DNA of 64,000 bases from an uncultured Halomicronema sp. (GTDB lineage Bacteria > Cyanobacteriota > Cyanobacteriia > Phormidesmidales > Phormidesmidaceae): assembly GCA_937899725.1 (NCBI GenBank), contig CALCCA010000075.1:1-64000 (forward strand). Direction: 5' to 3'. The notes beneath the pieces are model-generated. The model ran no database searches. It saw only the letters and a program-made list of their open reading frames with translations, and was not told where the DNA came from. The position numbers and the translations under genes are program-made. This document shows, one piece after another, positions 26,288 to 27,998 of the stretch (the stretch's first letter is position 1; each line of letters opens with the position of its first letter).

Positions 26288-26641
26288 ATGTTTTGTCTAC
26301 AAAATATCACTCGATACTTTTTGGCTGCAGCCGCCCTAGGCTGCTTGAGCACCAGCGTCATTGCTCCTCAAGGAGCGTTGTCTCTCGCTGAGGCTAGTGA
26401 TCGCGACGAGACCAGTCACCGGGGCAGCGGGCGCATTGTAACGCAAGGGCCAGAGGCGATGACTGCTTTAGAAGGCATCGCCTATCGCGGCACGGGACGG
26501 TTAGAGCAGCGGAACGAACTGAAAGTCGGCCATCGCGGGAGCGGTCGCATCGACAACCAGAGCCCTGATACCCGAGCGGTGGCCTATCGGGGCAGTGGCC
26601 GGGTATCGCCTCGCGGTCTCAGCCGCCCCGAATTTGTCTAG
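26288..26641 (+). CDS. patX: PatX-like exported protein with four RG(S/T)GR peptides
   Basis: A 117-residue protein. Residues 1 to about 36 are a signal peptide with an AxA-like end (LSLAEA). The rest is hydrophilic and carries four peptides: HRGSGRI (RGSGR 45-49), YRGTGRL (67-71), HRGSGRI (83-87) and YRGSGRV (101-105), each spaced 16-22 residues. RGSGR is the pentapeptide by which PatS, HetN and PatX inhibit HetR. An exported protein with [HY]RG[ST]GR near hetR is the definition of PatX in filamentous cyanobacteria. hetR is the next gene, 373 bases downstream on the same strand. Four copies is unusual, since PatS and most PatX proteins have one. GAGGGG lies 9 bases before the ATG. The family link is strong; processing and transport are inferred. 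Confidence 0.88.
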   Translation: MFCLQNITRYFLAAAALGCLSTSVIAPQGALSLAEASDRDETSHRGSGRIVTQGPEAMTALEGIAYRGTGRLEQRNELKVGHRGSGRIDNQSPDTRAVAYRGSGRVSPRGLSRPEFV

Positions 26642-27014
26642 CTGCGCCCGCTGGCTGCAGCCGGCTCCCTAGAGTCCAGCGGCCACGACTGTGATGCCAA
26701 TGTTTGTCGGATATTGCTGAAATGATGTGTTGAGGGCGATTCACGATCGCGCTCTGGGAGTCAGGACAACACCTGTCTCGGGGGCTCAAGACAACGGCTT
26801 TTGACGTCTTGAGGTCTCAGAGAGCATCCCCCACTCCCCAAAAACCCCCAAGGGTAGTAGCATCATTAGCGATTCCGCAAATAGGCTTCCCGATTTTTCG
26901 ACACTTTGAGGTCATGCAGTCCCTGTGGCTCTGTGATCGCTAGGTAGAGCAACTGGCTGGTTTCAGCCGTTCTGTCTTTAAGTCAAACCTATTAGCGGTA
27001 TTGGGTTTCGAGTT
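26642..27014 (+). other. patX-hetR intergenic region
   Basis: 373 bases without a gene. It contains C-rich words (CCCCCACTCCCCAAAAACCCCC near 26830, written here as two runs), and probably the hetR promoter. No GTA-N8-TAC NtcA site and no full GAGGGGT/ACCCCTC inverted repeat was found. No strong terminator follows patX, so read-through into hetR is possible. Confidence 0.45.
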
Positions 27015-27998
27015 ATGTTGAGTGCGTCAGAGTCTGTTACCAACGATATGGATCTAGTCCGTCAGCTGAGTCCCAGTGCGATCGATCAAATTCTCTTACA
27101 TATTGCGTTCAGCGCTATGCGAACGGGCGGACATCGTCACGGCGCTTTCTTAGATGCCGCTGCCACAGCGGCCAAATGTGCAATTTATATGACCTATGTT
27201 GAGCAGGGTGAAAACCTGCGCATGACCGGGCATCTACACCATATTGAACCCAAGCGAGTCAAGGCGATCGTCGGCGAGCTCGAAGAAGCGCTCACCGAAG
27301 GCCGACTCTTAAAAATGTTGGGGTCACAAGAGCCCCGTTATTTAATCCAATTTCCCTACGTGTGGCTCGATCGCTACGCTTGGCAGCCGGGCACACACCG
27401 CATTGCGGGGGCCAGTTTGACCTCCGAAGAAAAGCGCGTTTTAGAACGCAAGCTGCCCGCTGGAGTGCCGGATGCTCAGCTGATTACGGCCTTCCAGTTT
27501 TTAGAGCTGATTGAGTTTTTGCACGAGCGATCGCAAGAAGAATTTCCACCTGATCGGCGTAGCCTGCTGAGTGAAGCGCTGGCCGAGCATATTCGGCGAC
27601 GGCTGATTTATTCGGGTACGGTGAGTCGCATTGATTCGCCCTGGGGCATGCCGTTTTATGCCCTTATGCGGCCTTCCTATTCGCCGGCGGATCAAGAAGA
27701 ACGTACTTTCATCATGTTGGAAGATACGGCCCGCTATTTTCGCATCATGCGCGATTGGGCGGAGCGCCAGGGCAAAACCATCCGCATCTTAGAGGAACTC
27801 GATATTCCGACCGATAAGCTACCCGATGCGATCGCCGAGTTAGACGAAACGATTCGCGCGTGGGCCGACAAATACCATGAGGCAGGCGGACAACCGATGG
27901 TGCTGCAAATGGCGGTCGGTGAGCAAGAGTCATCGCTGGTCAGCCCTGATGAATTGGCTGACGGCTTTGACGAAGAGTTTGACACTGAGGTGCAATAG
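27015..27998 (+). CDS. hetR: Heterocyst/filament differentiation regulator HetR
   Basis: A 327-residue DNA-binding master regulator. In heterocyst formers it switches on differentiation; in other filamentous cyanobacteria its role is less clear. The sequence follows HetR closely: [20 protein letters not shown] (31-50), [10 protein letters not shown] with the conserved Cys (55), [27 protein letters not shown] (101-118), [10 protein letters not shown] with the essential Ser (186), [12 protein letters not shown], and the hood-domain ILEELD (258-263) whose Glu-Glu-x-Asp contact the RGSGR peptide. It has about 7 extra residues at the N-terminus and about 20 acidic ones at the C-terminus compared with Anabaena HetR. 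The residue matching Anabaena Ser152 appears to be Ala159. patX lies directly upstream. Confidence 0.96.

Follow-up and report, generated by a model that had tools for sequence, protein, structure and literature searches.

patX and hetR in the window

The window, that is, the whole 64,000-nucleotide stretch of DNA analyzed here, encodes on its forward strand a 117-aa protein (26288..26641) that we assign as a multi-copy variant of PatX from the reading of the ORF and from comparison across genomes. The protein contains four RG(S/T)GR pentapeptides, RGSGR at residues 45-49, 83-87 and 101-105 and RGTGR at residues 67-71, preceded in turn by H, Y, H and Y. Taken with the preceding residue these form four hexapeptide units on the forward strand: HRGSGR followed by Ile (unit 1, 26417..26434; motif codons 26420-26434), YRGTGR followed by Leu (unit 2, 26483..26500; motif codons 26486-26500), HRGSGR followed by Ile (unit 3, 26531..26548; motif codons 26534-26548) and YRGSGR followed by Val (unit 4, 26585..26602; motif codons 26588-26602). 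The N-terminal region (26288..26380, forward strand, its end approximate) is hydrophobic, with a Kyte-Doolittle 12-residue maximum of 1.83 compared with at least 1.19, and a median of 2.04, among genes of the window's order; judged by hydropathy, it is a probable export signal. The patX stop codon is separated from the ATG of hetR (27015), on the same strand, by 373 bases (26642..27014). An initial annotation had reported the 117-residue ORF, its four motifs, the His or Tyr before each and the 373-base distance to hetR, all of which proved correct when re-read from the sequence. We searched the window's genome (7.0 Mb in 216 contigs) for a second patX and found none.

We considered and rejected two trivial origins of the repeats. 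In 200,000 shuffles of the residues of the protein there was never more than one motif, which excludes chance. A recent tandem repeat of DNA is excluded for the window's gene by the differing synonymous codons of its motif copies and by conservation across the order. Such a repeat does seem to apply to some relatives, for example L044, L064, L068 and L295.

The downstream gene, hetR (27015..27998, forward strand), encodes a 327-aa protein, HetR1, which we presume to be the peptide receptor. HetR1 scores 534 bits against the NCBIfam HetR equivalog NF009718 (cutoff 489), and its closest matches among solved structures are HetR chains. In the structure of Anabaena HetR with PatS6, the C-terminal carboxylate of the peptide lies near R223, and E254 and D256 flank its amino group (PMC4649674). 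All six PatS6 contacts are kept in HetR1, where Anabaena R223, E253, E254, D256, D270 and D278 correspond to R230, E260, E261, D263, D277 and D285 of the hood domain (residues 226-303, Pfam HetR_C, PF18460; 27690..27923, forward strand). The initial annotation had listed E260, E261 and D263 as conserved, and R230, D277 and D285 can be added to that list. About 3.7 kb downstream of hetR, an ORF at 31686-32825 reads as a site-2-type membrane metalloprotease with an HELGH motif. Elsewhere in the order, an extra HetR1-type paralog (about 72% identical) is present at L059 and L060 of genus g146, in both cases with no RG[ST]GR gene upstream.

A DIF1-like element, TCCTGA (a one-base variant of TCCGGA), lies at -62 from the patX start (26226..26231, forward strand) and is shared upstream of patX genes. 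Of the 53 patX genes of the order, 52 have it, nearly always between -59 and -65. Outside the order it precedes 19 of 20 patX genes that adjoin hetR, and the remaining gene has TCCGGA. A second conserved stretch (GTAAC...) follows about 20 bases after TCCTGA. Because the element is common to single- and multi-copy patX, the multi-copy genes have the ordinary type of patX promoter. We also looked upstream of patX and of hetR for HetR-binding boxes of the form GGGN5CCC, and these were not conserved.

Assignment as patX

As cited in later papers (PMC7761841, PMC11298460, PMC12756182), Elhai and Khudyakov defined PatX by an RG(S/T)GR motif, a hydrophobic N-terminus or Sec export signal, a DIF1-type element, co-occurrence with hetR and a released peptide that inhibits HetR. 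The window gene has the motif in four copies, has hetR 373 bases downstream, and has the DIF1-type element in a variant form that is also found at single-copy patX outside the order. The earlier description of a PatX-like gene beside hetR is upheld. The gene does not match the description of PatS, a very short protein of 17 aa with a C-terminal RGSGR, as the window protein has 117 aa and internal motifs.

Against the NCBIfam heterocyst_PatX equivalog NF047413 the window protein scores 21.9 bits, below the cutoff of 30. The same model matches only 12 of the 53 members of the order even at an E-value of 0.01, and three of five single-copy, hetR-adjacent controls also fall below its cutoff (L005, 21.2; L009, 17.3; L099, 10.5). 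Since single-copy controls and most of the order fail alike, we consider the model to be narrow, and we do not claim the curated equivalog for the window protein. Judging by our comparison of NF047413 with loci L001-L131, surveys that rely on profiles may count too few patX genes. One survey, from 2025, applied NCBI and Pfam profiles at trusted cutoffs and recorded hetR and patP in the absence of patX for 12% of genomes (PMC12756182); part of that class may consist of missed multi-copy PatX proteins.

Copy number across cyanobacteria

For copy number we read the sequence that precedes hetR in genomes of the window's order (Halomicronema, Leptolyngbya PCC 6406, BL0902 and relatives) and in about 77 other hetR-bearing genomes, together with 80 named loci. 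Multiple motifs, from two to nine, were present in 49 of the 53 hetR-adjacent patX genes of the order. The full distribution was one motif in 4 genes, two in 5, three in 28, four in 11, five in 3 and nine in 2, and the layout with patX upstream of hetR was conserved across the order. In the first set of hetR-adjacent patX genes from outside the order, all 20 had a single motif and none was multi-copy. The cross-cyanobacterial comparison that the initial annotation had proposed thus bears out its statement that most PatX proteins elsewhere are single-copy. It overturns the view of multi-copy PatX as a peculiarity of this one gene, since it is instead the norm in a whole order.

A strict limitation to the order is ruled out by sporadic multi-copy genes elsewhere, with 2 motifs in Lyngbya aestuarii BL J, 2 in G213, 2 in G116 and 11 in G229. 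On the HetR tree, in which some deep forks are weak and the bootstrap is unsettled, the single- or multi-copy label changes three times, as it would if multiple copies had been gained once at the root of the order and lost again within genus g151. Our searches of the family and of the order each covered 65 genomes, which suggests that this GTDB order contains a single family. The nearest named relatives of the window's organism are an uncultured Halomicronema assembly (98% HetR identity), Oscillatoria sp. CS-180, Halomicronema sp. CCY15110 and Leptolyngbya sp. PCC 6406. Contig C16 of the window's genome (55544-62002) holds nifH and nifD above cutoffs and a further nifD-like match; the organism is probably a nitrogen fixer, presumably one without heterocysts.

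Several individual loci are of interest in their own right. At L121 and L123 (genus g14), a tandem pair of separate patX genes precedes hetR, each gene with one motif; the residues before the motifs are R and E, and this is an alternative route to several hexapeptides. Degenerate extra copies stand alongside an intact motif at L082 (YRGGGR) and L111 (HRGSDR), as if units decay. The PatX-like protein of G229 (L295, 1341-1962), a member of another family, has eleven RGSGR motifs, and no HetR was found in this genome, rated 99% complete, even at an E-value of 1e-5. Either there is a gap in the assembly or this is a PatX without HetR.

We found no mention of multi-copy PatX in the literature that we searched; Elhai and Khudyakov 2018 lay outside that search. 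The order-wide multi-copy PatX is a variant of known PatX. Since Leptolyngbya PCC 6406 and PCC 7375 were public by the time of that paper, it may well have been mentioned before. Among filamentous cyanobacteria the PatX-HetR pair is regarded as the oldest system for patterning between cells, and an order in which PatX carries from 1 to 9 units offers a natural series for the study of signal dose, precursor processing and the matching of ligand to receptor.

Unit grammar and selection on each copy

The 175 units of the order share the consensus [A/S/D]-X-RG(S/T)GR-[I/L/V]. Of the 49 multi-copy genes, 48 have D, H, N or E ahead of their first motif and 47 have Y, W or F ahead of their last, and I, L, V or F follows the motif in 165 of 175 cases; these counts are not independent, as many of the genomes belong to one genus (g148). 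Taken genus by genus, the pattern holds in most: HYHY in g1, g145 and g152; DFY in g144 and mostly in g148; HHW or HW in g149; NWW(W) in g146; D or E and then YY in g147; and NDY in g2. Genera g153 (HH) and g151 (single units or YH) depart from it. Conserved flanks of this kind are the pattern that defined cleavage sites would leave, and we regard the sites here as putative.

Selection was examined in six orthologs that have diverged widely, five from genus g1 and the sixth from g152; within a gene, the four motif copies differ in their synonymous codons. Across the motifs dN was 0.007 and dS 1.65, and in the spacers pN was 0.51 and pS 0.73, which amounts to saturation. All four motifs, the preceding H, Y, H and Y and the Thr of unit 2 were invariant, and that Thr is kept in all seven genomes of g1 and g152. 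Invariant motifs and unit identities amid saturated silent sites argue that every copy is in use and that the identities of the units matter. Because each copy is kept by selection in the window's genus, a single precursor is probably the source of several signal peptides that differ slightly from one another. The proposal of up to four peptides per precursor is strengthened to the extent that four motif copies are present and maintained. The further suggestion, that RGSGR and RGTGR variants differ in strength, gained no support: the residue preceding RGSGR is reported to have no effect on the affinity of Anabaena HetR (PMC4649674), and we found no published comparison of Ser with Thr.

A second HetR in the order

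The window's genome encodes a second HetR, HetR2 (contig C83, 9228-10118; L002), which is about 50% identical to HetR1 and scores 364.8 bits against NF009718, under the cutoff of 489. In its pocket LEVFD replaces LEELD, placing Val-Phe at the positions of Glu254-Leu255, beside the first residue of the peptide. The replacement of E254 by V is found in 11 of 11 HetR2 proteins. HetR2 proteins otherwise keep R223, E253, D256 and D270, and nearly all keep D278, these being the residues that bind the arginines and the C-terminus. In Anabaena HetR, E253A abolishes binding, and E254A only weakens the affinity from 12 to 91 nM (PMC4649674), so HetR2 may still bind peptide. Among the sampled genomes HetR2 is nearly confined to the window's order, most of whose genomes carry it. 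We looked for a peptide gene beside HetR2 and found no RG[ST]GR, no TCCTGA and no small upstream ORF that is conserved from locus to locus. Some members of the order have a third, more distant HetR type, which keeps E253, D270 and R223 and in which both E254 and D256 are changed.

In Leptolyngbya BL0902 (G423) we found patX upstream of hetR, with three motifs preceded by D, I and Y (L080), and three HetR-like proteins. Deletion of this patX changed 428 genes, an effect that the authors judged to be independent of the main HetR (PMC11298460). The main text of their paper does not mention motif copy number. Action on other HetR proteins is one hypothesis that could explain these effects, and a multi-unit PatX is a possible reason why patX and hetR did not behave as a simple pair in this strain.

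A probable multi-peptide precursor and its alternatives

We think it likely that the product of the window's patX is an exported multi-peptide precursor of hexapeptides that block HetR. Nostoc PatX is exported, requires export for its activity and is cut by the peptidase PatP, and Nostoc HRGTGR binds HetR with a Kd of 88 nM and displaces it from DNA (PMC12756182). By homology, the hydrophobic N-terminus of the window PatX would drive export of the chain, and once it had left the cytosol a PatP-like peptidase would cleave it before and after every unit. Cuts on both sides would be needed for internal units because both ends of PatS6 are held in the Anabaena structure (PMC4649674). Some single-copy PatX proteins among the 80 named loci end in RGSGR. 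Cleavage would release at most four hexapeptides of the form X-RG(S/T)GR: HRGSGR twice, and YRGTGR and YRGSGR once each, three kinds in all. These could spread through the filament by diffusion, enter cells, bind HetR at its hood and lift it off DNA.

The repeats might instead serve dose only, the units being interchangeable and the extra copies supplying more inhibitor per transcript for the one adjacent HetR; we give this somewhat less than an even chance. Copy number does shift fast among close relatives (4 versus 5 in L064 and L068; 4, 5, 5, 9 and 9 in g147), and the lack of effect of the preceding residue on Anabaena HetR points the same way (PMC4649674). Interchangeable units should drift, however, and yet the HYHY series and the unit-2 Thr are kept in 7 of 7 genomes of g1 and g152, and the order of first polar, last aromatic recurs in most genera. 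It is very improbable that one unit, for example the first, is the signal and that the rest are remnants or spacers. Single-copy PatX is functional in Nostoc (PMC12756182) and the few degenerate copies (L082, L111) do exist, but the equal invariance of all four copies at saturated silent divergence largely refutes this reading for g1 and g152.

The units could also be ligands for several receptors, with different types serving different HetR-family proteins. In its favor, HetR2 keeps the binding residues with E254 changed to V, has no patX of its own nearby, and is accompanied by a PatX with both aromatic and non-aromatic units in 39 of 39 genomes, compared with 9 of 14 genomes that lack HetR2; in BL0902, three HetR-like proteins are found with a three-motif PatX, and patX effects are reported to persist without the main hetR. 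We nevertheless hold it to be unlikely. The 5 genomes of genus g147, whose PatX proteins have 4-9 motifs and units of both types, have a single HetR, and HetR2 and multi-copy PatX occur in one clade, where their association may reflect ancestry alone. Slightly more doubtful is the specific assignment in which HetR1 is the target of the non-aromatic type (H/D/N/E-RGSGR) and HetR2 that of the aromatic type (Y/F/W-RG(S/T)GR); if true, one patX would signal to two transcription factors along a filament without heterocysts. A role of PatX in non-heterocystous filaments that is unrelated to HetR binding seems improbable to us. The BL0902 transcriptomes, in which patX effects were reported to be independent of the main hetR (PMC11298460), and the 11-motif gene of G229, where no HetR was detected, would agree with such a role, but the invariant motif is identical to the ligand of HetR, the gene has a fixed place beside hetR, and the receptor contacts are conserved.

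Comparison with known systems

The multi-peptide precursor that we favor most closely resembles PatX of Nostoc/Anabaena PCC 7120 (PMC12756182, PMC7761841), with which it shares RG(S/T)GR, the hydrophobic N-terminus, the DIF1-type element, the link to hetR and His-preceded HRG(S/T)GR. The Nostoc protein, however, has 56 aa and one inhibitory hexapeptide, whereas the window PatX has 117 aa and four motifs, two of them preceded by Tyr. PatX of BL0902 (GFS31_32390; PMC11298460) belongs to the same order, has hetR immediately downstream and is likewise multi-copy, but has three motifs, preceded by D, I and Y, in place of four preceded by H, Y, H and Y. PatS and HetN also contain the RGSGR ligand of HetR but are not known to be multi-motif exported precursors.

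Outside the cyanobacteria, the prepro-alpha-factor of yeast is an exported tandem pheromone precursor in which near-identical signal units alternate with spacers. The comparison with tandem pheromone precursors made in the initial annotation would fit the window PatX: the exported multi-unit layout is alike, although the two proteins are unrelated by descent and their processing sites, putative in PatX, differ.
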